Assembly (NCBI GenBank): GCA_002898535.1 | Contig: BEHN01000001.1 | Coordinates: forward strand, 124,001-188,000 | Direction of reading: 5' to 3' | Source of the DNA: a bacterium HR11 | GTDB lineage: Bacteria; Acidobacteriota; HRBIN11 | Length of the DNA stretch: 64,000 bases | In this document: positions 11,280 to 62,239 of the stretch, piece after piece | How the letters are laid out: every line of letters begins with the position of its first letter | Numbering within the stretch: the first letter of the stretch is position 1 | Program-made: the position numbers and the translations under genes | Notes under the pieces: model-generated | What the model was told of the DNA's origin: nothing | Database searches by the model: none | What the model saw: the letters and a program-made list of their open reading frames with translations, nothing else

Positions 11280-12986
11280 ATGAGTCTCGGAGACCGCCCC
11301 TCGACGACGGCCCATTCTACCGTTGAATGGCTTCGGGAGCTCTGCTGGGCCTGCCCGAGGTGTCGTCGGCCGCTGACGGTCGAAGGGCCGGAGACGATGT
11401 ACTGCCCGGCCTGCCGGGTGGACTATCCGTGCATAGACGGCGTATGGCGGTTCCTGCCGCCCGAACGGGAGGCCTTCTTTCGGGCTTTCCTTCGGGACTA
11501 CGAGACGATCCGCCGGGCCGAGGGTCGGGGCGCCGACGACCCGGCCTACTATCGGGCCCTGCCGTTTGAAGACCGGACGGGCCGCTTCCGAGCCGACTGG
11601 CGGATTCGGGCGAAGAGCTTCCGGGCCTTTGTCCACCGGGTCCTCGAACCCCTGGCCCGCCAGCGGGGCCGGCCCCTGCGGGTCCTGGACCTCGGCGCCG
11701 GCAACGGGTGGCTGTCCTATCGTCTGGCCCGGCAGGGCCACGTCGCCGTGGCCGTAGACCTGATCACGAATGCGTGGGACGGCCTGGGGGCTCACGTGCA
11801 CTACGACGTGGCCGTTCTCCCCGTGCAGGCCGAATTCGACCGTTTGCCCTTTACCGGGGAGCAGTTTGACGTGGCCGTTTTCAACGCCTCTTTCCATTAC
11901 TCGACGGACTACGTGGTCACGCTGGCCGAAGTCTTGCGGGTCCTGCGTCCCGACGGTCGGGTCGTCGTCATGGATTCGCCGGTGTACCGGGCTACGGCCA
12001 GCGGCGTTCGGATGGTCCGGGAGCGGGAGGCCGAGTTCATCCGCAAGTACGGATTTCCATCGAACGCCCTCCCCAGCGAACACTACCTGACGTATGACCG
12101 TCTTCAGGGCTTGGCCGAGGCCCTGGGTTTGCGGTGGCGTCTCATCCGTCCGTTTTACGGATGGCGTTGGGCCCTGCGACCCTGGCAGGCGCGTCTCTTG
12201 CGGCGTCGGGAGCCGGCCCGGTTCCTCGTGATCGTGGGACGCAGGGTGCAAGACGAGGCCGGAGCGGTTCAGACGAAACCCCACGGGCGACCGTCCGCAT
12301 TCTTTGAAAGCGTCCGGGGGGTCATGGGACGGGCGTGGGCCCGGGGATACTTCCGGGCCTTTCAGCGACATCGATATAATCGACTCGTGGTGGAGACGGT
12401 CGCCGGCAGGCCCCTCGTGGTCCTCCCGGGAGTCTTCAATCCGAAGCTCTTCGGGACGGGCGAATTTCTCGTCGAAACGCTCAGCGAACGGTGGGTCCCG
12501 CCCGGGTCGACCGTCCTGGACATGGGGACGGGGGCCGGCGTCGGGGCCGTCTTTGCGGCCCAGTGGGCCCATCGAGTCGTGGCCGTCGACATCAGTCCGG
12601 CGGCCGTCCGGTGCGCCCGTATCAACGTGCTCTTGCACGGCCTGGAAGATCGGGTCGAAGTGCGCAAGGGGGACTTATTCGAGCCTGTACGGGGGGAGCG
12701 GTTTGACGTGATTTTGTTCAATCCGCCGTATCTGCGGGGCGAGCCCCGGGACGACCTGGAGCGGGCGCTTTGGTCGACCGACGTCGTCGAGCGGTTCGCC
12801 GCCGGTCTGGGAGACCACTTGAAGGACTCCGGCTGGGCCCTCCTGCTCCTCTCGTCGGTCTCCGACGAGGCGGGCTTTTTGCGGCATTTCCGGGCCTACG
12901 GCTTTCTCGGCGAGCCGATCGCTCGACGGCGCCGCTTCGGAGAGGTCTGGACCGTGTATCGCATCGTCCCGATACCTCGGGATTAG
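11280..12986 (+). CDS. Double methyltransferase fusion with N-terminal zinc ribbon
   Basis: A 568-aa protein with three parts. Residues about 14-45 form a zinc ribbon of the Trm112/UPF0434 type (CPRC, then CPAC). Residues about 110-330 are a UbiE-like class I methyltransferase (VLDLGAGNGWLSYRLARQG, then FDVAVFNASFHYSTD). Residues about 345-568 are a second class I domain of the HemK/PrmC or RsmC type (VLDMGTGAGVGAVFAAQWA, catalytic FNPPYLRGEP). NPPY normally marks N-methylation of glutamine or nucleobases. The ATG at 11280 is chosen because upstream frame overlaps the preceding gene. The stop TAG (12984-12986) includes the first base of a family T element. I know of no standard protein with this exact order; the cluster suggests a role alongside the radical SAM enzymes. 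Confidence 0.8.
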   Translation: MSLGDRPSTTAHSTVEWLRELCWACPRCRRPLTVEGPETMYCPACRVDYPCIDGVWRFLPPEREAFFRAFLRDYETIRRAEGRGADDPAYYRALPFEDRTGRFRADWRIRAKSFRAFVHRVLEPLARQRGRPLRVLDLGAGNGWLSYRLARQGHVAVAVDLITNAWDGLGAHVHYDVAVLPVQAEFDRLPFTGEQFDVAVFNASFHYSTDYVVTLAEVLRVLRPDGRVVVMDSPVYRATASGVRMVREREAEFIRKYGFPSNALPSEHYLTYDRLQGLAEALGLRWRLIRPFYGWRWALRPWQARLLRRREPARFLVIVGRRVQDEAGAVQTKPHGRPSAFFESVRGVMGRAWARGYFRAFQRHRYNRLVVETVAGRPLVVLPGVFNPKLFGTGEFLVETLSERWVPPGSTVLDMGTGAGVGAVFAAQWAHRVVAVDISPAAVRCARINVLLHGLEDRVEVRKGDLFEPVRGERFDVILFNPPYLRGEPRDDLERALWSTDVVERFAAGLGDHLKDSGWALLLLSSVSDEAGFLRHFRAYGFLGEPIARRRRFGEVWTVYRIVPIPRD

Positions 12987-13329
12987 CAGAGTCGTTCGGT
13001 CGGGCGAAATGCGGTCCCCATCCGGGAAAGCGGTAGCCCGGCGATCTCGATTTTTCAAGCTTGTTAAGGATGACACCGCCGTCACCGGCGGTGTTCGGAG
13101 GGGATGACACCGCCATGACGGGCGGCGTCAAGACAGGGGGACACCGGCATGACGGCCGGTGTCCCGGGGATAGACGCCCGTCACCCGACCTGCCCATCTG
13201 CCGACCTGCCCATCTGCCCACCTGCCGACCTGCCCACCTGCCCATCTGCCGAATGCCTGAAACATCGTACTTTCGTGGAGGTGCCCTTTCCGCTTGCCAT
13301 CGCACTTCTCACCTCCCGAACGGCTCTGT
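12986..13329. mobile_element. Family T element, copy a (344 bp, TA-flanked)
   Basis: The ends are inverted copies: GCAGAGTCGTTCGG on the left and, read inward from the right, ACAGAGCCGTTCGG. TA lies directly outside both ends (12984-12985 and 13330-13331), fitting a 2-bp TA target duplication as made by IS630/Tc1/mariner-type transposases. The interior holds three stem-loops (about 13066-13165), an 8-bp array (13187-13250), and the conserved subterminal block containing CGATGTTTCA in reverse. There is no coding capacity. The TAG stop of the upstream gene is TA plus the first element base. Confidence 0.7.
13187..13250. repeat. Octamer array inside element T-a
   Basis: Eight contiguous 8-bp units of consensus SAYCTGCC (GACCTGCC, CATCTGCC or CACCTGCC) with no interruption. 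The same word array recurs at 15693-15771 in element T-b. Confidence 0.9.
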
Positions 13330-13404
13330 TAGGTATTTTAGGCGGGAGGTTATCGATGAAACCGAAGATAGCGCTCCCGCCGTAGATGATGCAGTCTGCC
13401 GAAG

Positions 13405-13426
13405 ACGCCGGCATCCCTGCCGGCGT
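13405..13426. repeat. Hairpin before radical SAM gene 4
   Basis: ACGCCGGC and GCCGGCGT form an 8-bp stem with a 6-nt loop, 28 bp before the GTG start at 13455. It resembles the stem-loops inside element T-a and may be part of the same repeat system or a leader hairpin. Confidence 0.5.
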
Positions 13427-13454
13427 TCCGAGGGGTCATGCAATCGAGGCCGCC

Positions 13455-14933
13455 GTGACGATCGTCCTGTACAATCCGCCGAGCACGCCTCAGCGGAAGC
13501 CGGTCCTGCCCCTGTCCCTTCTGGCCCTGGGGGCCGTCCTGGAGGGGGCGCACGACTACGTCATCATCGACGGGAACTTAGAGCCAGACCCCCTCACCAC
13601 GCTGGACCGGGCCGTCCGGGAGACGGGCGCCGACGTCCTGGGCGTGACCGTCATGCCCGGCCCCCAACTGGCCGGCGCCGTCCCCGTCTGCCGTCAGCTC
13701 AAGGCCCGCTATCCTCACCTGACCATCGTCTGGGGCGGTTACTTCCCGACCCAACACTACGACGTATGCCTCCGGGCCGACTACGTGGATTATGTCGTGC
13801 GGGGCCACGGCGAGCTCGTCTTCCGGGCCCTCGTCGAGGCCCTCCGACGGGGCGACGACCCGAAGTCCCTGCCGGGCCTTGCCTATCGGGACCCCCGGAC
13901 CGGCCAGGTCGTATCCACCGGCCTGGCCCCGATCCCCCACCCGGACCGCCTGCCCGACTTTCCCTATCATCGGGTCGCCATGCCACGATACGTCCGGCGG
14001 ACCTTCCTGGGGAGCCGGACCCTCTCCCACCATTCGAGTTACGGGTGCCCCTTCCTGTGCAACTTCTGCGCCGTCGTCAACATGGTCAACGGCCGCTGGT
14101 ACGCCCAGTCGGCCGAGCGCACGGCCCGGGTCGTGCGCGACCTGGTCGAGCAGTGGGGCGCCAACGCCGTCGAGTTCTATGACAACAACTTCTTCGTCCA
14201 CGAGGCCCGAACGGCCGAGTTCGCCGAGCGGATTCGAGGCCTCGGCATCGCCTGGTGGGGCGAGGCCCGCATCGACACGCTCCTGCACTACTCGGAACGG
14301 ACGTGGCGGCTCATGCGGGACAGCGGCCTGCGGATGGTCTTCCTGGGGGCCGAGTCGGGCTCCGACGAGACCCTCCGGCGGATGAACAAGGGCGGCACGG
14401 CGACCGTCGAGAAGACCCTGGAGATTGCCGCCAAGATGAGGTCCTACGGGATCGTCCCGGAATTCTCCTTCGTCCTCGGCAATCCGCCGGACCCGGAGGC
14501 TGACGCCTACCAGACGATGGAGTTCATCCGACGGGTCAAGCGGGTCAACCCCGACGCCGAGGTCGTCCTGTACATCTACACACCCGTCCCGGTCGCCGGC
14601 GAGCTGTATGAGCAGGCGAAGGCCCGGGGCTTTCGATTCCCCGAGACGCTGGAAGAGTGGCTCAGCCCCCGGTGGCAGGAGTTCATCCAGCGGCGGAGCG
14701 TCCACATGCCCTGGCTGAAGGACCCCCTGCGTCGGCAGATCCGGGACTTCCAGTACGTCCTCAACGCCTACTACCCGACGGTCACGGACCCCCGGCTCCG
14801 GGGCCTGGCCCGGGGGATTCTCCGCCTGACGGCCGCCTGGCGGTATCACCTGCGGTGGTATCGCTACCCCTTCGAACTCCGCCTCCTGCACCGCCTCATT
14901 CGCTATCAGCGGCCGGAAACCAGCGGCTTCTGA
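13455..14933 (+). CDS. B12-binding-domain radical SAM protein 4
   Basis: About 492 aa. The N-terminal cobalamin-binding domain opens TIVLYNPPSTPQRKPVLPLS and contains VVRGHGELVFRALVEAL. The cluster motif is Cys198, Cys202 and Cys205 (CPFLCNFC), followed by LGAESGSDETLRRM. I choose GTG 13455: an in-frame extension to 13386 exists but encodes repeat-derived residues (EDAGIPAGVPRG, from the hairpin at 13405). It is separated from the upstream cluster by element T-a and followed within three bases by element T-c. It is probably part of the same oxygen-sensitive modification pathway as the other three radical SAM genes, perhaps on its own transcript. Confidence 0.82.
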   Translation: MTIVLYNPPSTPQRKPVLPLSLLALGAVLEGAHDYVIIDGNLEPDPLTTLDRAVRETGADVLGVTVMPGPQLAGAVPVCRQLKARYPHLTIVWGGYFPTQHYDVCLRADYVDYVVRGHGELVFRALVEALRRGDDPKSLPGLAYRDPRTGQVVSTGLAPIPHPDRLPDFPYHRVAMPRYVRRTFLGSRTLSHHSSYGCPFLCNFCAVVNMVNGRWYAQSAERTARVVRDLVEQWGANAVEFYDNNFFVHEARTAEFAERIRGLGIAWWGEARIDTLLHYSERTWRLMRDSGLRMVFLGAESGSDETLRRMNKGGTATVEKTLEIAAKMRSYGIVPEFSFVLGNPPDPEADAYQTMEFIRRVKRVNPDAEVVLYIYTPVPVAGELYEQAKARGFRFPETLEEWLSPRWQEFIQRRSVHMPWLKDPLRRQIRDFQYVLNAYYPTVTDPRLRGLARGILRLTAAWRYHLRWYRYPFELRLLHRLIRYQRPETSGF

Positions 14934-14935
14934 TG

Positions 14936-15350
14936 ACAGAGCCGTTCGGCCCGTGGGAACCCGCAGGATTCGGCTTTTCCGGCCCTCCGGGGAGGACGGT
15001 TTTTGAAGCAAAGAGCCATCCGGGAGTTCGGGAATCCGGGAAGGCCGTTCGCGGCCGACGTAGAAGGCAAGGGGCATGGAGCGTTCCCAGTCCCCACGTC
15101 TCCCTGAAGTTTTCCTGACTCTCCGCCGCATGGGCTCATGGCCGCTATTGGCCCATGGCTCATAGTCCCATGAGCCATCAGCTATGAGCCATGAGCCAAC
15201 ATGAGCTATGAACCAATAGCGGTTATGAACCATCCATCACCCTGGCTCATCACTCCGCTACTCCGTCACTCCGTCCCTTTGAAACATCGTGCTTCCCGAG
15301 CGATGGAAAGGGCCGCCCCGACGCCATTCTCACGGGCCGAACGGCTCTGC
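14936..15350. mobile_element. Family T element, copy c (about 415 bp)
   Basis: Left end ACAGAGCCGTTCGG lies three bases after the TGA stop of radical SAM gene 4; the right end reads inward GCAGAGCCGTTCGG. The interior has a left module (AGTTCGGG/AATCCGGG words near 15017-15045), a long inverted array of the 7-bp word CTCATGG/CCATGAG (about 15130-15230), and the conserved right subterminal block with TTTGAAACATCG. The TA duplication is not preserved. No open frame of note. Confidence 0.65.
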
Positions 15351-15528
15351 TCTAAAGTTCGGACATGACATGGGACAAAGGAACCTAAATCAGGCCGATG
15401 GGAAGTCGTGAGGGCTTCGGCCCGGGGATCGATCCCCTGACTTGGACGGGGCGAGAGCGTTTTCTCAGGTCATATCTGGATGCCTGCGCCTGGATGTCCA
15501 AACTCATATCCGAAGGTCAGCTCTGCTA

Positions 15529-15849
15529 TCAGAGCTGTTCGGTCGGGAGAGATGCTGTTCCCATCCGGGAAAACGGTGGCCCGTCGATCTCGATTTTTCA
15601 AGATTCCTCCCGATGACCCGGCCAGGACGGGCGGTGCATGCGGAGGACGCCCGCAGGACGGCCAGTGTTCCGAGGATAGACGCCCGTCGCCCGACCTGCC
15701 TATCTGCCGACCTGCCGACTTGCCCATCTGCCCATCTGCCGACCTGCCTATCTGCCGACTGCCCACCTGCCGAATGCTTGAAACATCGTGCCTTCCGGGG
15801 GATGGGAAAGATTGTTCTGACGCCATTCTCATGAACCGAACGGTTCTGC
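15529..15849. mobile_element. Family T element, copy b (321 bp, TA-flanked)
   Basis: Left end TCAGAGCTGTTCGG; right end read inward GCAGAACCGTTCGG; TA directly outside both ends (15527-15528, 15850-15851). The interior matches copy a: a block containing CTCGATTTTTCAAG, a GC-rich stem-loop region, an octamer array and a terminal block with TTGAAACATCG. The two copies look about equally old and clearly share one origin. The 15351-15528 stretch between copies c and b shows nothing I recognise. Confidence 0.7.
15693..15771. repeat. Octamer array inside element T-b
   Basis: Ten units of the SAYCTGCC-type word (GACCTGCC, TATCTGCC, CATCTGCC), one shortened to 7 bp. Unit order differs from the array in copy a, so the arrays have expanded or been reshuffled independently. 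Confidence 0.85.
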
Positions 15850-15855
15850 TATCTT

Positions 15856-15884
15856 GCATCCCGTGTCCCGTATCTTGTATCTTC
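15856..15884. repeat. Heptamer array, word GTATCTT
   Basis: Units GCATCCC, GTGTCCC, GTATCTT, GTATCTT run from just beyond element T-b toward the PilP-like gene. Confidence 0.6.
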
Positions 15885-15912
15885 TAACTCCGGCCTCATA
15901 CGGAGGTGGACC

Positions 15913-16416
15913 ATGCGGCATGGGTGGATTTACAGTGCCCTCATCGCGGGCCTCCTGGTCGGCGGGGTCGGATGGGCCCAACAAGCCCAGAAGCCCCAAC
16001 CGAGTCCACCGGCTCCGACGCCGCCCGCCGCCCCTACGGAGACTGTCGGGGTCCATGACCCCAACTTTCACTATGAAGAGGGCCGGGACCCCTTTGAGAA
16101 CCTGACCCTTCGGGTCAAGGATAAGGGTCGGCCTCGAGAGATCCGGAGCGTGGCGGACCTGCTGGTCGAAGAGGTCTCTGTGATGGGCATCTTTCAACGA
16201 GAGGGCAAATACTACGCCCTCGTGCGCGGCTCGGGCCTGAAGCGTTCGGAGACGATCACGGCCGGCCAGAAACTCTACAACGGCGAGGTCATCGAGATCG
16301 GGCCCTACACGGACGAGAATACAGGTGAGCGCAAGCTCTGCGTCGTCTTTCGGGTCCAGACGGATGACCCCATCCGGCCCTTCATCCGCCAGGTCAAGTG
16401 CACGGCGACCTCTTAA
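15913..16416 (+). CDS. PilP-like periplasmic protein
   Basis: A 167-aa exported protein. A signal peptide (WIYSALIAGLLVGGVGWAQ) is followed by a Pro/Ala-rich linker to about residue 45, then a DPF-containing segment (EEGRDPFENL) and a small beta-rich domain (VMGIFQREGKYYALVRGSG, then YNGEVIEIG). This matches the layout of type IV pilus assembly protein PilP, which links the inner-membrane PilNO complex to the PilQ secretin. No other pil genes are adjacent, and there is no lipobox Cys at the signal-peptide end. The assignment is therefore tentative; another envelope assembly factor is possible. ATG at 15913 follows an ACGGAGGTGG ribosome site. Confidence 0.5.
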   Translation: MRHGWIYSALIAGLLVGGVGWAQQAQKPQPSPPAPTPPAAPTETVGVHDPNFHYEEGRDPFENLTLRVKDKGRPREIRSVADLLVEEVSVMGIFQREGKYYALVRGSGLKRSETITAGQKLYNGEVIEIGPYTDENTGERKLCVVFRVQTDDPIRPFIRQVKCTATS

Positions 16417-21382: not shown

Positions 21383-21504
21383 ATCAATCCGACCATCGAC
21401 CACGGACCATAGACCGGCTTGGGCCCAGGGGATCTAGGGTCCATGGTCTGGGGTCGGATATCGAGGGTCCGGTCCCGGTCCCGTCGGATTGATGAGACTG
21501 GTTC
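21383..21504. repeat. Family P palindromic element, copy 1 (left arm truncated)
   Basis: The right arm is complete (GGTCCGGTCCCGGTCCCG, then GATGAGACTGGTT). The left arm keeps only the ATCAATCCGA end and the heptamer core. The centre reads GGCTTGGGCCCAGGGG. It lies upstream of the radical SAM gene start at 21326 and abuts a degenerate T element on its other side. Confidence 0.65.
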
Positions 21505-21604
21505 TTCGTCACTTCATCACTCCGTCCCTTTGAAAAATCGTGCCCGCCGGGCGATGGAAAAGGCCGTCCCGACGCCACTCTCACGAACTGCCGACCTGCC
21601 GAAC
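21505..21604. mobile_element. Degenerate family T end abutting the ispA stop codon
   Basis: On the minus strand the ispA TAG is followed by a TTCGGCAGGTCGGCAG octamer-type stretch in place of the normal end, then the conserved block GTTCGTGAGAGTGGCGTCGG and a TTTTTCAAAGGGACGG segment. Only one end is recognisable; the other side is joined to family P copy 1. Confidence 0.5.
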
Positions 21605-22491
21605 TACGCCTGCCGCTCCGTGATAAGATAGGCCAGGGCCGTCAAGAGGCCACGCGCGTCCCATGGCCGAATGGCCTCGATGGCCCGGTCTCGGAACGCC
21701 CGGGCGTCCGCCCAGGCCCGTTCGAGACCGACGGCTCGGGGATAGGTCGCTTTCGAGGCTTGCACGTCCTTGCCGGGCGTTTTCCCCAAACGCTCCGGCG
21801 GGGTCGTGAGGTCCAGGATATCGTCGACGATCTGAAAGGCGACCCCGACGGCCTCTCCGTATGTCCGTAGGGCCTCCATCATGGCCGACGGGGCTTCCGC
21901 CATGAGACCCCCGATTTCGACGGCGGCCGTGATCAGGGCGGCCGTCTTTCGGCGGTGAATACTTAAGACGTGCTCGACCGAAGGCGTCGGCGCCACGGTG
22001 TACATGTCCATCCACTGACCGGCGACCATCCCGCGCGGACCGGCATAGCGAGCCAGTAAACGAACGACTTCGATGCCAATCGCCGGATGGGCCCGAAGAA
22101 ACGGACATGCCCCTAAAAGCTCGAAGGCCAGCGTGAGAAGTCCATCCCCGGCCAGGATGGCCGTCCCCTCGCCAAACTGGACGTGACATGTCGGTCGACC
22201 CCGCCGGAGAGTATCGTTGTCCATCGCCGGCAGGTCATCATGGATTAAGGAATACGTATGGATACACTCGATGGCACAAGCCGCATACCGGAAACGTTCG
22301 GGCTCGACGCCCAGGGTCTCACCGACCGCCAAGAGGAGGACCGGCCGGATGCGCTTGGCCGGGGCCAGGAGGGAGTAGCGCATGGCCTCCCAGAGGCCGG
22401 CGGCCGGTTCGGGGCCGGCAGGTCGGACCAACTCGTCTAACCAGAGGTCTACGAGGGCCGCTCGATCCTGGAGGTAGTCTCGACCGTCCAT
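21604..22491 (-). CDS. ispA: Polyprenyl diphosphate synthase (farnesyl/geranylgeranyl type)
   Basis: A 295-aa trans-isoprenyl diphosphate synthase that condenses IPP with allylic diphosphates to make C15 or C20 chains. The first Asp-rich motif is HDDLPAMDNDTLRRGRPT near residue 85 and the second is FQIVDDILDLT near residue 225. The two-residue insertion inside the first motif (DDLPAMD) places it with bacterial short-chain FPP/GGPP synthases of the IspA group. Length is normal. Product length cannot be set from sequence by eye. It lies between a T-type remnant at its stop codon and an AT-rich island upstream of its start. No dxs or xseB gene is adjacent, unlike the common enterobacterial order. 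Confidence 0.88.
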   Translation of the reverse strand: MDGRDYLQDRAALVDLWLDELVRPAGPEPAAGLWEAMRYSLLAPAKRIRPVLLLAVGETLGVEPERFRYAACAIECIHTYSLIHDDLPAMDNDTLRRGRPTCHVQFGEGTAILAGDGLLTLAFELLGACPFLRAHPAIGIEVVRLLARYAGPRGMVAGQWMDMYTVAPTPSVEHVLSIHRRKTAALITAAVEIGGLMAEAPSAMMEALRTYGEAVGVAFQIVDDILDLTTPPERLGKTPGKDVQASKATYPRAVGLERAWADARAFRDRAIEAIRPWDARGLLTALAYLITERQA

Positions 22492-37334: not shown

Positions 37335-37681
37335 GCAGAGCCGTTCGGCTTGTGAGAATGACGTCGGAACAACCTTTCCCAACGCCCAGGAAGCACGATG
37401 TTTCAAAGGGACGGCGTGACGAGCCAGGGGGATGGATGGTTCATAGCCGCTATGGGCTCATAGCTCATGGGTCATGGCCCATGTTGGCTCATGGCTCATA
37501 GCTGATGGCTCATGGGACCATGAGCTATGAGCCATGAGCTATGAGCCAATATGGGTCATGAGCCCATGCGGCGAAGAGTCGGGAAAACTTCAGGGAGACG
37601 TGGGGACTTGGAACGATGGATGCCCCCTCGCCTTCTACGTCGGCCGCCGGACGGCCTTCCCGAACTCCCGAACGGCCCTGC
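37335..37681. mobile_element. Family T element, copy d (347 bp, TA-flanked)
   Basis: Left end GCAGAGCCGTTCGG; right end read inward GCAGGGCCGTTCGG; TA outside both ends (37333-37334 and 37682-37683). The interior has the subterminal block with AAGCACGATGTTTCAAAGGG, then a heptamer cruciform (CTCATGG words inverted as CCATGAG, about 37440-37565), then a module with ACTTCAGGGAGACGTGGGG. It is in the opposite orientation to copy c. The lpxK stop TAG is built from the flanking TA plus the element's terminal base. Confidence 0.75.
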
Positions 37682-38781
37682 TAAGTGAGCAGGGTCGAAA
37701 CCCCGAGATCCGGCGGGCCCTCCCGTAGGCGGCGTTGGAGCCAGTCCGGGAAGTTCGGACTCGGCGGTAAGAAGCTCAACTGTTGACCTACGACGATGAC
37801 GGTGAAGTTCGGGCGGTAGGCTTCCATCTTGACCCAATCCTTGAGAGTCGTGAGGACGCCCCAGCAGGTCCGGCTGGTGAGTTCCAGACGACGAATCTCT
37901 TCAGGTCCCCAGGGGGCATGATCCGGCCGGAGCCACGTAGCGGCGATGTCGATACCGGCCTCGCGGAGGTCCTGCACGAAGGAATCGGGGTCGGCGACGG
38001 TCGCCGTGACCATCCAGCGGCCGTGTCGGAGTTCCTCCAGGGGCATGGGGCGTGCACCCTCCCGCATGTCCAGGAAGGGGCCGACGGAGAAGCGGACCCG
38101 GAAGATAGGACGTCGCCAAGATCGAAAACGACGGAGATCCCGCTCGACGGCCTCGTACTCCTCAAGGGTCCGACCCTTCGTCAGAAGAATGGCATCCGCC
38201 CGTCGGAGGTGGTGAAGGGGCTCCCGAAGACGGCCGCTCGGGAACAAACGTCGGGAGCGCCGCCAATTGGGAATGTCGATTAAGACCAAATCGACGGTTC
38301 GGGCCAAACGTCGATATTGGAAGCCATCGTCTAACAGGACGACGTCAAAAGCCCCATTCCGGGCGGCCAAGGCGTAAGCCGCCTCCCGGCGTCGGCCGAC
38401 AGCCACGGTGACCGGGACCCACCGGACCAGCATGGCCGGTTCGTCCCCGATGACCCGCCAGTCCGGGACCGAAGCCCGGTCGATATCGACCCAGGCGACG
38501 CCCCGTTGCCGGCCCCGGTATCCGCGAGAGAGGACGAGGGGCGTATACCCGAGGGTCCGGAAGTAACGGGCCAAATACATCACGAAGGGCGTCTTCCCAC
38601 TTCCGCCGACGAATAGACTCCCCACGCTGACGACAGGTACGGGCAGACAAACTGTCTTTCGTAGGCCAACGTCATAGGTGTGGTGCCATAGACAGGTCAG
38701 AAGCCCGTATACGCCCGCCCAGGGGGCCATCCCCATACCCCAGACGGGGTGGCTTAGGAGAGCATCCAGTCGCCCCATCAT
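37681..38781 (-). CDS. lpxK: Tetraacyldisaccharide 4'-kinase
   Basis: A 366-aa LpxK, the inner-membrane kinase that phosphorylates the 4' position of the lipid A disaccharide precursor. The N-terminal hydrophobic segment (MAPWAGVYGLLTCLWHHTY) is followed by Walker A VSVGSLFVGGSGKTPFV near residue 50 and the second conserved motif LLDDGFQYRRLAR. I start at ATG 38781, matching family length; the frame stays open to 39153 but passes through family P copy 2. Its stop codon is shared with element T-d. It is evidence for an outer membrane with lipid A, with kdsD nearby. Confidence 0.9.
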   Translation of the reverse strand: MMGRLDALLSHPVWGMGMAPWAGVYGLLTCLWHHTYDVGLRKTVCLPVPVVSVGSLFVGGSGKTPFVMYLARYFRTLGYTPLVLSRGYRGRQRGVAWVDIDRASVPDWRVIGDEPAMLVRWVPVTVAVGRRREAAYALAARNGAFDVVLLDDGFQYRRLARTVDLVLIDIPNWRRSRRLFPSGRLREPLHHLRRADAILLTKGRTLEEYEAVERDLRRFRSWRRPIFRVRFSVGPFLDMREGARPMPLEELRHGRWMVTATVADPDSFVQDLREAGIDIAATWLRPDHAPWGPEEIRRLELTSRTCWGVLTTLKDWVKMEAYRPNFTVIVVGQQLSFLPPSPNFPDWLQRRLREGPPDLGVSTLLT

Positions 38782-38883: not shown

Positions 38884-39027
38884 GACTGCAGACCGTAGAC
38901 CATGGACCATAGACCCCAGACCATAAACCGGCTTGGGCCCAGGGGGTCTATGGTCTATGGTCCATGGTCTGTGGTCTGATAATCGAGGGTCCGATCCCGG
39001 TCCCGTCGGATGGATGAGACTGGTTCT
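38884..39027. repeat. Family P palindromic element, copy 2
   Basis: Heptamer core on both sides of the centre GGCTTGGGCCCAGGGGG (units such as GACCATG, TAGACCC left; GTCTATG, GTCCATG right) and a full right arm ending GATGAGACTGGTT. The left outer arm is missing. It lies about 100 bp upstream of the lpxK start. Confidence 0.7.
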
Positions 39028-39233: not shown

Positions 39234-39443
39234 CATGTATTAGCTCATGGCTCATAGCTGATGGCTCATGAGGCTATGAGCCAACATGGGCCATGAGCCC
39301 ATGCGGCTATGAGCCGATAGCGGCTATGAACCATAAATCACCCTGGCTCGCCCCTCCGTCACTTCATCACCTTGAAACATCGTGCTTCCGAGGGGATGGG
39401 CAAGGTTGTTCCGACGCCATGCTCACGAACCGAACGGCTTTAC
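39234..39443. mobile_element. Family T element, copy e (one end intact)
   Basis: The right end read inward is GTAAAGCCGTTCGG with TA outside (39444-39445), followed by the block with AAGCACGATGTTTCAAGG and the CTCATGG/CCATGAG heptamer array. The left end is not recognisable; the array begins at TGTATTAGCTCATGG as in copy f. It borders the DnaA-box region. Confidence 0.6.
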
Positions 39444-39458
39444 TATAGGCCCTCGGGA

Positions 39459-39695
39459 AATGTGGAAATCTTGTGGAAATGCTTGTGGAAATGCTGTGGA
39501 ACCGGGATGTGAATATGTGGAAATCGGTCTGTGAGGGGTTCCGTTTTCCACATGGAAGCCCCCTGATTTCCACAAGTTGTGGAAATCGAAAATCCGCTTC
39601 CCGCCTTGCAAAAACCCCAATTTCCACATTTCCACACCCTATTCTTCTTCTTATATATACACATCTCTCAAGAAGTAGGAATGTAAAGAAGAAAT
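39459..39695. other. oriC: Probable replication origin (oriC) with phased DnaA-box-like sites
   Basis: Nine TTTCCACA octamers (either strand) occur in 176 bp: starts of the 9-mers at 39461, 39472, 39484, 39516, 39544, 39566, 39578, 39620 and 39628, plus a near match at 39495. The sites at 39461, 39472, 39484 and 39495 are spaced 11, 12 and 11 bp, one helical turn each. TTTTCCACA-type boxes are a known variant of the TTATCCACA DnaA box. A low-GC stretch (39641-39700, TTCTTCTTCTTATATATACA) follows and could be the unwinding element. dnaN and recF lie directly downstream. dnaA itself is not in the window. Confidence 0.78.
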
Positions 39696-39696
39696 A

Positions 39697-39854
39697 GAAC
39701 TAGTCTCATCCATCCGACAGGACCGGGATCGGACCCTCGACATCTGACCCCAGACCATAGACCGCCTTGGGCCCCGGGGGGTCTAAGGCCCATGGTCTGT
39801 GGTCTGATAATCGAGGGTCTGATCCCGGTCCCGTCAGATGGATGAGACTGGTTC
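39697..39854. repeat. Family P palindromic element, copy 3 (complete)
   Basis: The most complete copy: a near-perfect 158-bp palindrome. The left arm runs AACTAGTCTCATCCATCC then GGGATCGGACCCTCGA; the right arm is its complement (TCGAGGGTCTGATCCC, then GATGAGACTGGTT). Heptamer words flank the centre. It lies between the origin boxes and the dnaN promoter. Confidence 0.8.
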
Positions 39855-39945
39855 AAGTCAGGATCGCCCCTTTTACGCGCCTCTCGGACGAACGACCCGA
39901 ATGGCCGACCTGCCGAGTTGCCTATCAGACCGGGATTGGAGTGAC

Positions 39946-39975
39946 TTGATTTTCAGGGTAGAGACGGCCTATGAT
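39946..39975 (+). promoter_or_regulatory. Probable dnaN promoter
   Basis: TTGATT at 39946-39951 and TATGAT at 39970-39975 with 18 bp between, about 65 bp before the dnaN ATG. Confidence 0.5.
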
Positions 39976-40038
39976 GGCGTTGGACGGGGGCACCGGATGG
40001 AGGGGGCCTTCCGTTACTCTGGCCGCCCGAGGAAGACC

Positions 40039-41241
40039 ATGAAGGTGGCTGTCGAGAAGGAACCTCTTTTCACGGAACTTCGGCTGATTCAGGGGGCCAT
40101 CGAGAAGAAGTCGGCGATTCCGACACTCTCGTACTTTCTGATGGAAGCGGAGGAAAACCGTCTTCGGCTGACGGCCTCAGATATGGAGCTGAGCTACCAA
40201 TCGATCATTCCGGCTCAGGTTGCGGCTCGAGGCCGTATCGCCCTCCCGGCGAAGGTCTTGGTCGATGTCGTCCGAACGTTACCAGAGGGTCTGATTACCA
40301 TCGAATTGGTCGAGCTCCCGCGGGTCTTACTCGAGGCGGGCCGTTCCAGCTTTGAGTTATTGGGCTTGTCGCCGGACGACTATCCGATCCCGCAGGTACC
40401 GGCCTTGGGGGATACGGCCTATGTCCTTCCGACTTGGGTCCTCCGACGGGCTATCGACTATACGGACTTTGTAATCCCCAAACATACGTTGCGGGAGGCC
40501 TTCCTGGGGATGCTCTTGGAAAAGCGTGGAGAAGTGCTTTCAGCGGCGGCGATGGACATCTACCGCTTGGCCTACTACGAGTCCCGCTGGGAAGGGTCAT
40601 CGGCAGTCCCCGACTTTAGCCTGCTGATTCACCGGAAAGCTTTGGCGGAACTGAAGAGCGCGTTGGCCGCGGACGCCTTTGAGACGGTCCGTTTCGGTGT
40701 GAGCGGCCACTTGATCACTTTTGAGCTGGGGCACCGGCGGATCAGCATTCGCATGATCGACGACACGTTTCCCGAGTATCGGAGTTTTATCCCGGAGAGT
40801 GCGCCTTACCGGATTCAGACCCCACGGCTTCCGCTTTTAGAGGCCTTTCGCCGAGTCGTCTTATTGGCCAAGGGCACGCCTGTCGCCAGCGCACCCTCCG
40901 TCCGAATCGAGCCGAAAGACGGCTCTCTGGAACTTCGGTTCCAGCACCCCGCCGTCGGGACCGCCCGAGACGTGGTCGAAGCGACGATCCATGGGTCTCC
41001 CTTTCCCGTGTATGTGAACGGTGAGTTTCTTGTGGAATTCCTCTCGGCCGTCCAAGACGAGGAGGTCGAGCTGTGGTTTAAGTCGACCCGAGAGCCGGCG
41101 GCGGTCCGACCCGTGGGTGCCAACACGATGGAAACTTACTGCTATGTGTACATGCCCATTGCGGAGGCCGAGACGGCTGGCGTGACCGAAGAAGTCCGTG
41201 TACCCGAAGAAGAGGAAGATGACGTGGCGATGGAAGATTAA
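40039..41241 (+). CDS. dnaN: DNA polymerase III beta subunit (sliding clamp)
   Basis: A 400-aa beta clamp that encircles DNA and tethers Pol III and repair proteins. Family features are LFTELRLIQGAIEKKSAIPTL at the N-terminus, LRLTASDMELSYQSIIPA near residue 50, and the C-terminal region with PVYVNGEFLVEFLSAV, then AVRPVGANTMETYCYVYMPI. The ATG at 40039 follows GAGGAAGACC. It overlaps recF by 23 bp. It sits directly downstream of the probable oriC, a conserved bacterial arrangement apart from the missing dnaA. Confidence 0.95.
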   Translation: MKVAVEKEPLFTELRLIQGAIEKKSAIPTLSYFLMEAEENRLRLTASDMELSYQSIIPAQVAARGRIALPAKVLVDVVRTLPEGLITIELVELPRVLLEAGRSSFELLGLSPDDYPIPQVPALGDTAYVLPTWVLRRAIDYTDFVIPKHTLREAFLGMLLEKRGEVLSAAAMDIYRLAYYESRWEGSSAVPDFSLLIHRKALAELKSALAADAFETVRFGVSGHLITFELGHRRISIRMIDDTFPEYRSFIPESAPYRIQTPRLPLLEAFRRVVLLAKGTPVASAPSVRIEPKDGSLELRFQHPAVGTARDVVEATIHGSPFPVYVNGEFLVEFLSAVQDEEVELWFKSTREPAAVRPVGANTMETYCYVYMPIAEAETAGVTEEVRVPEEEEDDVAMED

Positions 41242-43402: not shown

Positions 43403-43766
43403 CATAGGCAGATAGGCAAGTCCGCAGATAGAGAAATGTGGGACTCCAACCCCGATGGGAGGGCCTTCCAAGCCTCCCGGACCGCCGAATGAGAAGACTT
43501 GCGGGCGCTGGTCTCCTTTCAGATGAACGTATGGAGACGGGGTATCGGGAGGAAGCTTCGGCAAGCAGGCAGGTCGGCCGGTGGGCCCCTTCACTCATGT
43601 ATTAGCTCATAGGTCATAGCTCATGGCTGATAGCTCATAGGCCATGAGCCATGAGCCGATGTGAGCCATAAGCCAATAGGGGCCACGGGCTCATCTCACG
43701 GGGACCCGCTTCCCGGGCGCTGGAAAAGGCCATTCCGACGCCATTCTCACGGGCCGAACGGCTCCG
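43403..43766. mobile_element. Family T element, copy f, with octamer arrays
   Basis: The right end read inward from the kdsD stop is ACGGAGCCGTTCGG, then GTGAGAATGGCGTCGG, then the CTCATAG/CCATGAG heptamer array (43600-43690). Further left are octamer words (GGCAGATA, GGCAAGTC at about 43405; GGCAGGTC near 43570). The kdsD stop TGA ends with the element's terminal base. The left boundary is uncertain; bases 43383-43596 may be unrelated spacer. Confidence 0.55.
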
Positions 43767-44768
43767 TCAAAACATCTGGAGCCGCCAGAGGTCGTGAATG
43801 TGAACGAGTCCTTCGAGTCGACCCTCTTCGTTGACGACGATCAGGGCCGTGATTTTGAACTTTTCCATCAGCCGAAGGGCATCCACCGCCAGGTCCTCGG
43901 GCCGGACGGTTTTCGGGTGGGGGGTCATGACGGCATCGATGGTCAGGCCCTCGACACTCCCATGACGTTCCAAGGTCCGGCGCAAGTCACCGTCCGTGTA
44001 AATGCCCACGACGTGGTCGGCCGCATCGACGACGGCCGTACATCCGAATCCCTTCTGGGTCATCTCTCGGACCGCCCGCGCCAGAGGGGTCCCCAGGAGG
44101 ACTCTCGGGACGTCGTCCCCCGTGTGCATGACTTGGGCAACCCGCAGGAGTTTGCGTCCGATGCTCCCTGCCGGATGGAGCCGGGACAAGACGGCCTCGG
44201 TGATGCCCTTGCACTGCATCACGGCGACGGCCAGGGCGTCGCATACGGCCAGCATCACAGTCGTGCTGGTCGTGGGAAGGACACCGTCCGGCGAGGCCTC
44301 TCGCAGGGGACCGACGGACAGGACGACCTGACTGTACCGGGCCAGAGCGGCATCCCGGGGGCCCGTGACGGCAATCGAGGGGATGCCCAGACGGCGGAGC
44401 CACTCGAGAAGGCGCAGGAGCTCCGGCGTCTCACCGCTGTAAGAGAGAAGGACGGCGATGTCGTCCGGCGTCACCAGGCCCAGATCGCCATGCAGGGCTT
44501 CGACGGGATGCAAGAAAAGAGACGGAATCCCGACGCTGGTCAGCGTGCCGGCCAGCTTTTTCCCGATGATGCCCGACTTGCCGACGCCCGACACGAGCAC
44601 CCGACCCCGGCATGTCGCCAAGTGCCGGACGGCCTCTGCAAACTCCGGTCCCAGCGTCCGGGCGAGCCGGGAGACCGCCCGACCTTCCGTGCGGAGCACA
44701 CGGCGCCCGATGGCGATGACCTCCGCATCCGTCAGCGAGATAGGGGCAATTCCTTGAGATGCCTTCAT
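43767..44768 (-). CDS. kdsD: Arabinose-5-phosphate isomerase (KdsD/GutQ family)
   Basis: A 333-aa enzyme converting D-ribulose 5-phosphate to D-arabinose 5-phosphate, the first step of Kdo synthesis for lipopolysaccharide. The SIS domain has GVGKSGIIGKKLAGTLTSVG near residue 60 and HGDLGLVTPDDIAVLLSYSGET; a CBS pair follows (VAQVMHTGDDVPRV, then IDAVMTPHPKTV). ATG 44768 has a GGGAG site; ATG 44804 is possible. With lpxK it supports an LPS-bearing outer membrane. Its stop abuts family T copy f. Confidence 0.92.
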   Translation of the reverse strand: MKASQGIAPISLTDAEVIAIGRRVLRTEGRAVSRLARTLGPEFAEAVRHLATCRGRVLVSGVGKSGIIGKKLAGTLTSVGIPSLFLHPVEALHGDLGLVTPDDIAVLLSYSGETPELLRLLEWLRRLGIPSIAVTGPRDAALARYSQVVLSVGPLREASPDGVLPTTSTTVMLAVCDALAVAVMQCKGITEAVLSRLHPAGSIGRKLLRVAQVMHTGDDVPRVLLGTPLARAVREMTQKGFGCTAVVDAADHVVGIYTDGDLRRTLERHGSVEGLTIDAVMTPHPKTVRPEDLAVDALRLMEKFKITALIVVNEEGRLEGLVHIHDLWRLQMF

Positions 44769-49735: not shown

Positions 49736-50542
49736 ATGACCGTTCGGAAGCCCGCCGTCGCTGGCTATTTTTACCCCAGCGACCCCGACCAACTCCGGAG
49801 CCTCCTGGCGCAGTTGATCGAGGACGTGACCCCCAAGGTCTCGGCGACGGCCATCGTGGTACCCCACGCCGGCTACATCTACTCGGGCCGGACGGCCGGG
49901 CGGGTCTACGGTCGGGTCCGACTTCCCCGCCGTTTCATCATCCTGTGCCCGAATCATACGGGCCTCGGAGCTCCCTTAGCCTGTTGGGCGACGGGCGTGT
50001 GGGAAACGCCCCTGGGCCCCGTCCGGGTCGATGAAGAAATGGCCCATCACCTGATGGAACAGTGCACCTTCTTAGTCCATGACACCGCCGCCCATCTGCG
50101 GGAGCACTCCCTGGAGGTCCATCTCCCCTTTCTCCAGTATCTGCTGGACGATTTCGTCTTCGTCCCGATCTGTGTCGGGACGTCCCGCATGACTCAACTG
50201 ACAGCGCTGGCCCAAGCCATTGCGGAGGTCATTCAGAGCTTGGGGGAGGAAGTCCTGCTGATCGCCAGTACGGACATGACCCACTACACGTCGGCCGCCG
50301 AGGCGGCTCGACTGGACCCACCGGCCATCCAGTGCATGGAACGGCTCGACGGCCCCGGTCTTTATGACGTCGTCCATCGTCAACGTCTGACGATGTGCGG
50401 ATACCTGCCGACGACCGTCGTCCTGATGACCGCTCGAGAGTTGGGCGCGACTCGGGGGACGCTGGTCGACTACACCCACTCGGGCCTGGTGACGGGAGAC
50501 GACACCTCGGTCGTGTCCTACGTGGGGATGATCATCGCCTGA
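49736..50542 (+). CDS. amrB: MEMO-like protein (AmmeMemoRadiSam system protein B)
   Basis: A 268-aa MEMO1-family protein. Conserved features are KPAVAGYFYPSDPDQLRSLL at the N-terminus, VVPHAGYIYSGRTAGRVYG near residue 45 with metal-site His, PNHTGLG, EHSLEVHLPFLQYLL, IASTDMTHYT and the C-terminal GDDTSVVSYVGMIIA. In bacteria and archaea it usually occurs with AMMECR1 and a radical SAM partner (AmrS); neither is adjacent here. Reaction unknown. ATG 49736 after AAGGAAGG. Its TGA abuts the left end of family T copy g. Confidence 0.85.
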   Translation: MTVRKPAVAGYFYPSDPDQLRSLLAQLIEDVTPKVSATAIVVPHAGYIYSGRTAGRVYGRVRLPRRFIILCPNHTGLGAPLACWATGVWETPLGPVRVDEEMAHHLMEQCTFLVHDTAAHLREHSLEVHLPFLQYLLDDFVFVPICVGTSRMTQLTALAQAIAEVIQSLGEEVLLIASTDMTHYTSAAEAARLDPPAIQCMERLDGPGLYDVVHRQRLTMCGYLPTTVVLMTARELGATRGTLVDYTHSGLVTGDDTSVVSYVGMIIA

Positions 50543-50830
50543 CAGGGTCGTTCGGTTCGTGAAAACCCGCATGGATTCGGCCTTTTCGACCCTTCGGGAA
50601 GGACGGTTTTTCGAGCCAAGGGCCATCCGGGAATTCGGGAGTCCGGGAATCCGGGAAGGCCGTTCGACGGCAGACGTAGAAGCCGAGGGGCGCCCATCGT
50701 TTCAAGTCCCCACGTCACTCTTCGCCGCCTCCTCTCGCCGACCGCCGGCGCCGGCCTCCCGGATCCCCGAACTGCCGAACTCCCGGCCTGGAACGAAGCC
50801 CGTCCCGCCGCCCCGCTGCCGCGCCGTCAC
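50542..50830. mobile_element. Family T element, copy g (left end intact)
   Basis: The left end ACAGGGTCGTTCGG begins on the last base of the MEMO-gene stop, followed by CGTGAAAACC, ATTCGGCCTTTTCGACCC, then AATTCGGG/AGTCCGGG octamers (about 50625-50655) and a CGACGGCAGACGTAGAAG block shared with copies c and d. The right end is not recognisable; octamer words near 50760-50800 (CCGAACTGCCGAACTCCC) suggest decay. Confidence 0.55.
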
Positions 50831-54117: not shown

Positions 54118-54432
54118 GGGAAGTTCTCGGAAGGAAACAGTCCAGGACCCGTGCGGGTTGACTCTAAGGGCCGAGTCTGTTAATCTTTTGCACATAGGGA
54201 AAGGGATACTTACATCCAAGAAGTAACCCCAGAAATCCCTTACTGGAGAAGGACGAAGGATAAGTTCGGACGATTCGATGGACCGTGCTTCAGCCGTATT
54301 CCTTGCCAGGAGGCGCGGAAGGGGGACCCCTGCCAGGAGTCGGTTGGATGGCGGATACATCGGGAGGGTTTGGGGCCTCTGGCTCGGGTGAGCCGTTTAA
54401 GACGCCTGGAGCTTGGAGGGGCAGGGGGTCGG
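54118..54432. other. 315-bp spacer before the kinase gene
   Basis: No gene, T or P element or heptamer array that I can recognise. It probably contains the kinase promoter. Confidence 0.4.
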
Positions 54433-57183
54433 ATGAATTTCGTCGGCGCCAACGAGATACCGCTCAAAATTGGGAAATACTTCGTGAAGCGTCTCCTCGG
54501 TCAGGGCGGCATGGGCCAGGTCTATCACGCCCATGACCCCGTCATCGGTCGAGACGTCGCCATCAAGATCATTTACCCCCAGTTGGCCACCGACCCGGAG
54601 CTGACCCGGCGTTTCCTGCACGAGGCTCGTTCTGCCGGGCGCTTGCACCATCCCAACATCGTCATCATCTACGAGTGCAGTGAAGAGAAGGGGGTTCCCT
54701 ATATCGTCATGGAGTACTTGGAGGGCCGGGACCTCAACAGCGTCATCAGCGCTCAAGAACCGATGAGTCTGGATCAGAAGTTAGACATCATTCGGCAGGC
54801 CTGCGATGCTTTGGCGTACGCCCATCAGCAGGGCGTCGTTCATCGGGACATTAAGCCTTCCAACATCTTTATCCTGAAGAACGGTGTCGTGAAGATCATC
54901 GACTTTGGCCTCGCCAAGGTCGGGATGACGCAGTTGACGCAGGTCGGGAAAGTCGTCGGCACGCCCTACTACATCGCTCCCGAGCGGCTCTCCGGTCGTC
55001 AAGAAGCCCCGGACGCTCGGTCCGACCTCTTCTCACTGGGCGTGACGATGTACGAACTTATCACGTATCGGCGTCCCTTTGACGGCGATGACCTGAACAG
55101 CATTTTGTTCAAGATCCTTCACCAGGACCCGCCGCCGATCACCCGTTTTGTCAAAGTTCCGTATGCGGCCGAGGTCCAGCAGGTCCTGGACAAGGCGCTG
55201 GCGAAGCAACCGGAGCGTAGATTCCAGACGGCCTTCGAGATGAAACAAGCTATCGAGGCCTTGTTAGATCGGATGCATGGAGGTGCTCCGTCGGTCGTTC
55301 GCAAGCCGGCGGCAATGCCAGTCTCACCGACCTCCGCGCCGGCGGGTCAGCCGAGCCCCGAGCAGGGCATCGACCGAGAGCCGACGCGGCCCATTCGCGA
55401 CCGCCGACCCGTGCCTTCCGCGGAAAAGCCCCTAAATCCCGAGATGATTCTCCAATTGGGACATCGGGACTTTGTGTGGGCTCTTGCCTTCTCGCCGGAC
55501 GGTCGGGTGTTGGCGAGTGGGGGTCGGGATCGGACGGTGCGTCTGTGGGACGTGGAGGCGGGGGCGTTGTGGCAGGTGTTGACGGGGCATGAGGGGGAGG
55601 TGACGGGCGTGGCGTTTTCGCCGGACGGTCGGGTGTTGGCCAGCGGGGGTCGGGACCGGGCCGTCCTGCTGTGGGACGTTGAAACGGGGTCGCTTCGGCG
55701 GGTGTTGGCGGGGCATGAGGGGGAGGTGACGAGTGTGGCGTTTTCGCCGGACGGTCGGGTGTTGGCCAGCGGGGGTCGGGACCGGGCCGTCCTGCTGTGG
55801 GACCTGACCGCGTATAGCCTCCAGAAGATCCTCTGGCACGAGAGCGACGTGTTCACGGTCGCCTTTTCCCCGGACGGACGCACGCTGGCGACCGGCGGGT
55901 TGGGCAAGACCGTTCGACTGTGGGACGTCCCGACGGGCACGGTCCGGCTGACATTAGAAGCGCATGAGAGTGCTGTTTTTGCGGTAGCCTTCTCACCGAA
56001 TGGCGGACTCATCGCCACGGGGGGCGGCGACCGCACGGTTCGGATGTGGCATCCCCGGACGGGTGAACTAAAGCGGTCTTTCCAGGGTCACAGCCATTTC
56101 GTGTGGTTTATCGACTTTCTCCTGGACGGCAAGACCGTGGCCGTGGGGGGCGGCGATAAGGCCATTCATTTCTGGGACTTGGCGACGGGCGCCCTGAAGA
56201 AGACGATGTCCTTACCGAAGCTTCTGACGGCCTCGATGGCCGTCACTCCGGACGGTCGAACCCTGGCCGTCGGCCGCATGGACCGACTGATTGAACTGCA
56301 GGACGTCGATACGGGCGTCTCGAAGCGGACGCTGGCGGGTCATGAGGACGTCGTGCTGGCCGTGGCTTTTTCGATGGACGGACTGACCCTGGCCAGCGGG
56401 GGCGCGGACCGGACCATACGTTTGTGGGAGGCTCTGTCCGGTCGGCTGAAGGCCACCCTGGCGGGTCATGAAGATACCGTCCTTTTCGTCGTCTTCTCAC
56501 CAGAGGGTCGTTGGTTGGCCAGTGCGTGTAAGGACCGGACGGTGCGGGTCTGGGATGCCGGGACGGGGCGACTGAAGCGGACTTTTCAGGGTCACGGTCT
56601 GTTGGGCAAGTCGGTGGCCTTCTCCCCGGACGGGCGGGTCCTTGCGGTCGGGAGTGCGGACCGGACCATTCGTCTGTGGGACGTCGAGACAGGGGTCTTG
56701 CTGAAGACGTTTTCGGGGGAGGGCTCGCTGGCCCGAGCCGTCGCCTTTTCGCCGGATGGACGGCTCTTAGCCGTCGGAAGCGAAGACCGCAAGGTTCGAC
56801 TCTGGGACGTGCAAACGGGAGCGCTCCAGAGGGTCTTGGAGGGTCATGGGGGAGAAGTTTACTCGGTGGCCTTTTCGCTGACGGGACACGTCGTGGCCAG
56901 CGGGGGCGTCGACGGAGCCGTTCGTTTGTGGCGGGTCTCCGACGGGTCGCCGGTCGTCACGTGGATGACCCTCTACCCGATGGGCAAGACGGGGGTCGCG
57001 ACGGAATGGATTGCCGTCACGCCGGAAGGGTACTACATGGGCTCGCCGGGCCTGAAAGCTTACGTCTGGTGGCTCGTCCATGGCCGACTGTACCCGTCGG
57101 ACGCCTTCGAAAGCCGATTTCACCGGCCGGACCGGGTCCGGCAGAATCTCCAGAGCCAGGAGATACCGGGCGTCATCCGGTAG
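54433..57183 (+). CDS. Serine/threonine protein kinase with 12 WD40 repeats
   Basis: A 916-aa signalling protein. Residues 15-285 are a Hanks-type kinase: P-loop GQGGMGQVY (residues 23-31 region), Lys45, VVHRDIKPSN and IDFGLAK, with activation-loop GTPYYIAPE. A Pro-rich linker (about 290-340) leads to twelve WD40 repeats of about 42 aa (two possible propellers), then a C-terminal motif (TPEGYYMGSPGLKAYVWWL) seen at the end of many WD40 signalling proteins. No transmembrane segment is present, so it is probably cytosolic. Repeats 2 and 3 are nearly identical at DNA level (period 126 bp), indicating recent repeat duplication. Start ATG 54433 after AGGGGG. Confidence 0.92.
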   Translation: MNFVGANEIPLKIGKYFVKRLLGQGGMGQVYHAHDPVIGRDVAIKIIYPQLATDPELTRRFLHEARSAGRLHHPNIVIIYECSEEKGVPYIVMEYLEGRDLNSVISAQEPMSLDQKLDIIRQACDALAYAHQQGVVHRDIKPSNIFILKNGVVKIIDFGLAKVGMTQLTQVGKVVGTPYYIAPERLSGRQEAPDARSDLFSLGVTMYELITYRRPFDGDDLNSILFKILHQDPPPITRFVKVPYAAEVQQVLDKALAKQPERRFQTAFEMKQAIEALLDRMHGGAPSVVRKPAAMPVSPTSAPAGQPSPEQGIDREPTRPIRDRRPVPSAEKPLNPEMILQLGHRDFVWALAFSPDGRVLASGGRDRTVRLWDVEAGALWQVLTGHEGEVTGVAFSPDGRVLASGGRDRAVLLWDVETGSLRRVLAGHEGEVTSVAFSPDGRVLASGGRDRAVLLWDLTAYSLQKILWHESDVFTVAFSPDGRTLATGGLGKTVRLWDVPTGTVRLTLEAHESAVFAVAFSPNGGLIATGGGDRTVRMWHPRTGELKRSFQGHSHFVWFIDFLLDGKTVAVGGGDKAIHFWDLATGALKKTMSLPKLLTASMAVTPDGRTLAVGRMDRLIELQDVDTGVSKRTLAGHEDVVLAVAFSMDGLTLASGGADRTIRLWEALSGRLKATLAGHEDTVLFVVFSPEGRWLASACKDRTVRVWDAGTGRLKRTFQGHGLLGKSVAFSPDGRVLAVGSADRTIRLWDVETGVLLKTFSGEGSLARAVAFSPDGRLLAVGSEDRKVRLWDVQTGALQRVLEGHGGEVYSVAFSLTGHVVASGGVDGAVRLWRVSDGSPVVTWMTLYPMGKTGVATEWIAVTPEGYYMGSPGLKAYVWWLVHGRLYPSDAFESRFHRPDRVRQNLQSQEIPGVIR

Positions 57184-59393: not shown

Positions 59394-59438
59394 GATGGGT
59401 CCGGGAGGTCCCAGGCTACGAAGGCGAGTCCCTGGCCA

Positions 59439-59580
59439 GAACCAGTCTCATAAATCCGACGGGACCGGGATCGCACCCTCGATATCAGACCACAGACCAT
59501 AGACCATGGACCTTAGACCCCCCGAGCCTAAGCAGGTCTATGGTCTGTGGTTATGGTCCATGGTCGGATTTATGAGATCG
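59439..59580. repeat. Family P palindromic element, copy 4
   Basis: The left arm is complete (AACCAGTCTCATAAATCC, then GACGGGACCGGGATCGCACC and a CAGACCA/TAGACCA heptamer core). The right arm keeps the heptamers and the end GGATTTATGAGAT but lost the middle. Upstream of the gene starting at 59393. Confidence 0.7.
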
Positions 59581-61630: not shown

Positions 61631-62239
61631 TTATCGCTTCCGCTCAGCCCGCCTCGACGAGACCCGCCGGGCCGTCGCTCCTACCAGGGCCGCCAGGTCG
61701 ACCTCCCAGCCCGGCAGGGCCTGGGGTCGGAAGACCTCCCCCGCCTCGACGGTCGCCCGGCAGAGGTAGCCCTCCGGCGTATACTGAAACTCTTGGATGA
61801 CCAGGGTCTCGCTGTCGACCAGCCAGTACCAGGGGACGCCCGCCGTCCAGTAGGCCCGAAACTTCGTGTACCGGTCCCGCCCGTGCGTCCCCGGCGAGAC
61901 GACCTCGACGACCAGGTCGGGGACGCCCCGGACCTTGCCGTCAGGCGTCAGGAGCTCGGCCTCCCGTTCCCGCCGGACGAAGGCCAGGTCGGGGATGTAG
62001 CCCCGCCCCGTCGGGAGCGCCACGTCCACCTCCATCACGACCGTCCCCAGGTCGTGGGTCTGGCAAAATTGGCGAAGGACGTAGAAGAGTACACCTACGA
62101 TGTCCTGGTGTCGGCGTGTCGGCGAGGGCATCCGAATGAGCCTCCCCTCCTCCAGTTCGTAGTAGGGCGGCCCCTCCGGCAGACGGAGCCAGTCCTCGAT
62201 ATTCTGAAGACGAGGGACTCGGACCGTCTGTACCGTCAT
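61631..62239 (-). CDS. Uma2 family (DUF820) endonuclease-like protein, copy 2
   Basis: A 202-aa Uma2/DUF820 protein with the PD-(D/E)XK-like fold. Likely catalytic residues are in YIPDLAFVRREREAELL and VPDLVVEVVSPGTHGRD, with Lys in YTKFRAYW. N-terminal YYELEEGRLIRMPSPTRRH is typical. These genes are common in cyanobacteria and thermophiles; their role is unresolved. It lies 3 bp after an almost identical copy (62243-62839), from which it differs mainly in residues about 45-60 and at both ends. Confidence 0.85.
   Translation of the reverse strand: MTVQTVRVPRLQNIEDWLRLPEGPPYYELEEGRLIRMPSPTRRHQDIVGVLFYVLRQFCQTHDLGTVVMEVDVALPTGRGYIPDLAFVRREREAELLTPDGKVRGVPDLVVEVVSPGTHGRDRYTKFRAYWTAGVPWYWLVDSETLVIQEFQYTPEGYLCRATVEAGEVFRPQALPGWEVDLAALVGATARRVSSRRAERKR

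Follow-up and report, generated by a model that had tools for sequence, protein, structure and literature searches.

The double methyltransferase gene of the window ends exactly where a dispersed repeat begins, and this locus raises the question of whether the element rebuilt the stop codon on insertion, is retained beside it as a signal, or came to lie there through its choice of target. The window, a stretch of 64,000 nucleotides at C1:124001-188000, belongs to a 2.99-Mb, 49-contig genome of ~65% GC (G000), and was compared with two relatives of the same genus (G001 and G002). The gene (11397–12986, + strand), found by the gene caller and matching Pfam Methyltransf_11/25/31 and MTS, is called from 11397, and its open frame could begin at 10626. 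It ends in an in-frame TAG (12984–12986) and the element end CAGAGTCGTTCGG follows directly from 12987. The element, copy a (12987–13328), is a 342-bp miniature inverted-repeat element (MITE) recognized by matches to a 13-bp terminal inverted repeat (TIR), and is absent at this place in G001 and G002. Its layout is GGGATTAG, then CAGAG...CTCTG, then TTAGG, with one TTAG at 12983–12986 (+ strand) that includes the complete stop codon and a second at 13329–13332. Since TTAG stands on both sides, the stop TAG lies wholly within the duplicated target and the element begins at C12987; an earlier note on this DNA had correctly placed the TAG against the element but had counted G12986, the last base of the target duplication, as the first base of the element. 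In G002 the empty site reads ...GGTATTAG followed by GTCATAGG, with TATTAG retained and no element; the filled site in G000, GGGATTAG, element, TTAGGTATTTT, has TATTAGGTCATAGG as its counterpart in G002.

Copy a is one member of a single dispersed family, here termed T-elements, with the TIR CAGAGCCGTTCGG at both ends and a typical length of 258–420 bp. Across the whole of G000, 531 TIR sites with at most one mismatch were found against 12 for the reversed pattern, declining within the genus to 223 against 16 in G001 and to background in G002 (9 against 10), where the family gave no signal. In a 1.63-Mb sample of G000, in which ends were called by a 26-position profile with reversed sequence as the control, 341 ends were recovered against none in the control, and 102 paired elements were present among them. 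The family has about 300 copies in G000. Short length, TIRs, target site duplications (TSDs), high copy number and the presence of both filled and empty orthologous sites identify T-elements as a MITE family, that is, non-autonomous DNA transposons with an ordinary mechanism; the family is new, but elements of this kind are known. No report of the family was found in the literature, and a TIR-based pattern gave seven exact matches in named genomes, 7/7 inside one Acidobacteriota MAG. Left and right ends belonging to different subtypes occur together in one element, and the interiors carry several unrelated simple repeats (window positions 13068–13169, 13176–13251, 15148–15222 and 37453–37572), including GACACCGCC hairpins, 8-bp CTGCCGAC units and GCTCATGGCTCATAG units; together these suggest that T-elements are mosaic.

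The TSD of T-elements is 4 bp long, NTAN and best TTAA, and not TA. TA adjoins 238 of the 341 ends, and identical 4-mers flank 43/70 TA-flanked pairs, compared with 8.9 expected if the outer bases were independent (P 1.6e-21). Pairs with identical flanks match over exactly four bases, with a longer match in none, and 32 of the 43 flanking 4-mers are non-palindromic. The clean TSDs are ATAA/TTAT, TTAA, CTAA/TTAG and ATAG/CTAT with a few others, and use per available site falls from 0.19 for TTAA to 0.094 for TTAT/ATAA, 0.092 for TTAG/CTAA and 0.028 for CTAT/ATAG, all other tetramers being below 0.02. The base adjoining CAGAG is A, G or T, rarely C, and is set by the target; further, weak base preferences occur at -5, -8 and -11. 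Clean duplications of NTGA type were also found, TCAT at C2:278836-279171 and TCAA at C8:68533, which on the opposite strand are ATGA and TTGA, so that NTGA targets are used at a low rate. At C2:110807 and C2:167716 the stop is TAA in G000 and TGA in G001, apparently beside the same insertion in each case, which looks like drift of the stop letter while the stop itself persists. Some TGA cases are accounted for by these rare NTGA insertions, and others look like later changes between TAA and TGA. As a separate observation, 14 junctions join back-to-back T-elements with exactly one 4-bp target between them (C1:358998-359003, C1:195551-195556, C4:128233-128238 and 11 more, in genome coordinates); such pairs arise when a new element lands in the TSD that an older one has made, and a rough estimate of the preferred sites offered by existing TSDs does not demand any special targeting for them.

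The insertion sequences IS701 and a subgroup of IS5 use 4-bp targets of YTAR type. T-elements share with them a TA-centred 4-bp target duplication but differ in a target that is TTAA-centred NTAN and not strictly YTAR. A DDE-type transposase making a staggered cut is the probable agent. With respect to an IS5/IS701-type enzyme, no protein with DDE_Tnp_1 (PF01609) was found in the incomplete G000 genome and no DDE_5 or DDE_Tnp_1_2 in G000–G002; in all, five transposase Pfam families gave no match, PF01609 in G000 and PF13546, PF13586, PF13701 and PF13751 in the three incomplete genomes. In the 1.63-Mb sample, no obvious transposase that would mark an autonomous parent lay between facing ends, which were examined to a spacing of 3.2 kb. 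The YPAL/RU-2 elements of Yersinia are, like T-elements, miniature insertions between genes, at sites occupied in some related strains and empty in others, and De Gregorio et al. reportedly described them in 2006 as often sited closely downstream of stop codons. T-elements have a fixed 4-bp NTAN duplication, whereas YPAL lacks a terminal TA and has a variable TSD of 3 to 26 bp (PMC2229807). Among bacterial MITEs with a TA target are Correia/NEMIS of Neisseria, RUP of pneumococcus and ERIC of enterobacteria (PMC2229807, PMC10969869). Compared by published descriptions, Correia, RUP and ERIC resemble T-elements in being short, non-coding, mostly intergenic and present in many copies, with TIRs and a conserved TA at the insertion point, but these IS630/Tc1-like families duplicate the 2-bp TA and have a different TIR.

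Within the window, element ends abut the stops of the double methyltransferase, lpxK, SIS/CBS and Memo genes. Copy d (37336–37680, flanks ATAG/CTAA) has its right end against the lpxK stop (TAG, 37681–37683, minus strand; LpxK Pfam match); the adjacency claimed previously is real, but regeneration of this stop by the terminal base, as had been stated for it as for copy a, is contradicted by the TSD of the family. The right TIR of copy f (43754–43766, - strand) abuts the TGA (43767–43769, minus strand) of the SIS/CBS gene, which is kdsD-like, and the left TIR of copy g (50543–50555, + strand) abuts the TGA (50540–50542) of the Memo gene. The TGA of these two genes had been read as supplied in part by the element; the abutment holds, but the SIS/CBS gene, whose stop in G001 also has an element end against it, has its TGA without an element in G002, and the Memo gene has its TGA without an element in G001. 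Copy b (14937–15349), with flanks ATGA/CTCT and no clean TSD, starts 3 bp past the TGA (14931–14933) of a B12/radical SAM gene, as had been described, and copy c (15530–15848) has a clean TSD, CTAT on both sides, and is not at a stop. The ispA stop (21604–21606, minus strand), said to border a degenerate copy in the same register, was not confirmed as a further case: only a decayed T-element end (21507–21603, repeat family D3) adjoins it, and in G001 the TAG is also present in a spacer without an element.

The window also holds other features. A cluster of DnaA-box-like TTGTGGAAA/TTTCCACA repeats with an AT-rich stretch at 39440–39690, just upstream of dnaN (39838–41241) and a recF-like gene, is likely the replication origin, and a T-element end (39430–39442) directly adjoins it. 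A second repeat family (21391–21505, 38889–39027, 39696–39854 and 59421–59559), with inverted ends of ~45 bp (GAACYAGTCTCATCCATCCGACRGGACCGGGATCGGACCCTCGA) and internal repeats of GGTCTATGGTC type, also occurs beside the putative origin. Farther along, at 61665–62564, neighbouring genes share a 300-bp stretch with 95% identity between its two copies; the first gene (61631–62239) encodes a Uma2 family putative endonuclease; this is probably a recent tandem duplication. A gene for a protein kinase fused to WD40 repeats (54370–57183) contains 126-bp DNA units up to 96% alike and appears to have undergone a recent internal repeat expansion.

Across the 1.63-Mb sample, an in-frame stop lies at distance 0 from 28/341 ends, with none at +1, none at +2 and two at 3; lpxK, whose end has a lower profile score, is a 29th case. 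Genes were called with a home-made hexamer-based script, run first and then again on the larger sample, so some stops and spacers are only approximate. For each of the 29 stop-abutting genes, the 3' end served as a query against G001 and G002 and the sequence past the stop was read. In 18/29 genes, at least one relative had no recognizable TIR at the site and had its stop at the same codon. For lpxK and two other genes a decayed TIR may follow the stop in G001, which makes these weaker as empty sites. A clear case is the element at C4:49026-49284, flanked on the gene strand by GGGTTAA on one side and TTAAGTCGGGG on the other; the empty site in G001 is GGGTTAAGTCGGTG (GGGTTAA then GTCGG), and the G001 sequence GGGTTAAGTCGGTGTTGGGTGCTGGGC corresponds to both flanks with a single TTAA and one base different. 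The stop codons thus predate the insertions and, judging from these alignments, appear never to have been broken or rebuilt by the element. Since the stops contain the four-base target, which is duplicated whole, they are intact after the element has landed. The earlier suggestion that insertion at stops is tolerated is borne out insofar as a working stop is left, but no terminal base regenerates it, the stop being within the NTAR, or sometimes NTGA, target.

Most of the stop adjacency is very probably accounted for by the chemistry of the target together with selection against gene breakage. A 4-bp staggered cut would be made at NTAN, where the observed preference is for TTAA and for half-sites that end with TAA or TAG, and repair would duplicate the four bases, leaving a complete TAA or TAG stop directly outside the element. 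Insertions that break genes would be purged, a loss for which we note that, among the 341 ends, three ORFs run into an element and five ends lie within a called gene. In this genome of 65% GC, TAR is barred in frame within genes, and in short spacers many of the preferred sites that remain are the stops themselves. The exclusion of in-frame TAR, purging, and stops serving as preferred sites would together give an apparent favour for stops.

The strength of this apparent favour depends on the null model. When all NTAN sites not breaking a called gene were weighted by tetramer use, 23 of the 235 ends counted with TA in place were observed to abut a stop against 12.3 expected genome-wide (1.9-fold, P 0.003). 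When spacer type and length were also matched, the expectation rose to 17.6 (z 1.4, not significant), and with random choice among the sites of an element's own spacer it was 20.0 (P 0.19). The last null has low power, since the result is predetermined wherever a spacer offers a single site, and all three are therefore given. The spike at distance 0 is real, but target-matched nulls predict ~12–20 of the 23 TA cases, and after matching target, spacer type and spacer length the distances come close to the random placement which the earlier note had held would speak against its reading. Depending on the null, gene ends may have a modest excess nearby, for which additional selection or the context of the target could be responsible. 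It includes 10 ends at 4–12 bp past a stop against 3.0 expected. A transposase guided to the 3' ends of genes by more than its tetramer preference, perhaps through terminator hairpins or convergent transcription, would fit this residue at stops and 4–12 bp downstream, its greatest strength in short convergent spacers (8 against 3.75 expected) and the weak base preferences outside the target. We consider such steering rather unlikely, as the excess at stops shrinks in the spacer-matched and within-spacer nulls and the same pattern is expected from selection against promoter damage.

The earlier note had also proposed that the elements are retained beside stops to signal 3' ends; this reading, here extended to RNA stability, is improbable. 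The RNA fold of copy a is much stabler than those of shuffled sequences (z -4.1), as is true of any long inverted repeat whatever its function. An intrinsic-terminator pattern is absent from copy a, and window positions 12900–16000 gave no Rfam match. Ends at 0–12 bp past stops are about twofold over the genome-wide target-matched null, and ERIC at gene 3' ends in Yersinia alters transcript levels (reviewed in PMC10969869). Against this, the proportion of ends facing a stop (41.7%) is close to that expected (40.4%), starts likewise being faced as often as target sites predict, and divergent spacers are as element-dense as tandem ones (density per weighted site 0.99 and 0.89, with 1.24 in convergent spacers). 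Moreover, among the 25 stop-abutting copies whose gene was found in G001, the orthologous stop carries an element in 5/25 and lacks one in 20/25, near the ~2–4/24 of control copies elsewhere with an element at a similar place in G001. Most stop-abutting copies being unshared with G001, the genes manage without them, and T-elements are not specially retained at 3' ends. Finally, insertion at a 2-bp TA target within the stop codon, after which the G or A that begins the element would restore TAG or TAA, would agree with the TA at most ends and the A or G that often neighbours it, but is refuted by the 4-bp TSD, in which the outer bases are duplicated too, by the base beside CAGAG following the target as A, G or T, by the TTAG on both sides of copy a and by the same stop in element-free relatives.

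Target preference combined with purging of gene-breaking insertions has consequences for how such families are read. With a target that contains TAA or TAG and a whole 4-bp copy made on insertion, stops become harmless landing pads and no special function is needed, and counts of stop adjacency made without target matching overstate functional meaning. The fall in copy number across the genus and the lack of a match in the transposase families tried point to a recent and possibly orphaned MITE burst, for which G000 with ~300 copies, G001 with fewer and G002 with no signal make a good natural series. There is also a small chance that transposition recognizes gene ends, combining the TAA/TAG half-site preference with an attraction to transcript 3' ends; if so, this recognition would be a built-in safe harbour, allowing hundreds of copies to spread through a compact genome without gene breakage.
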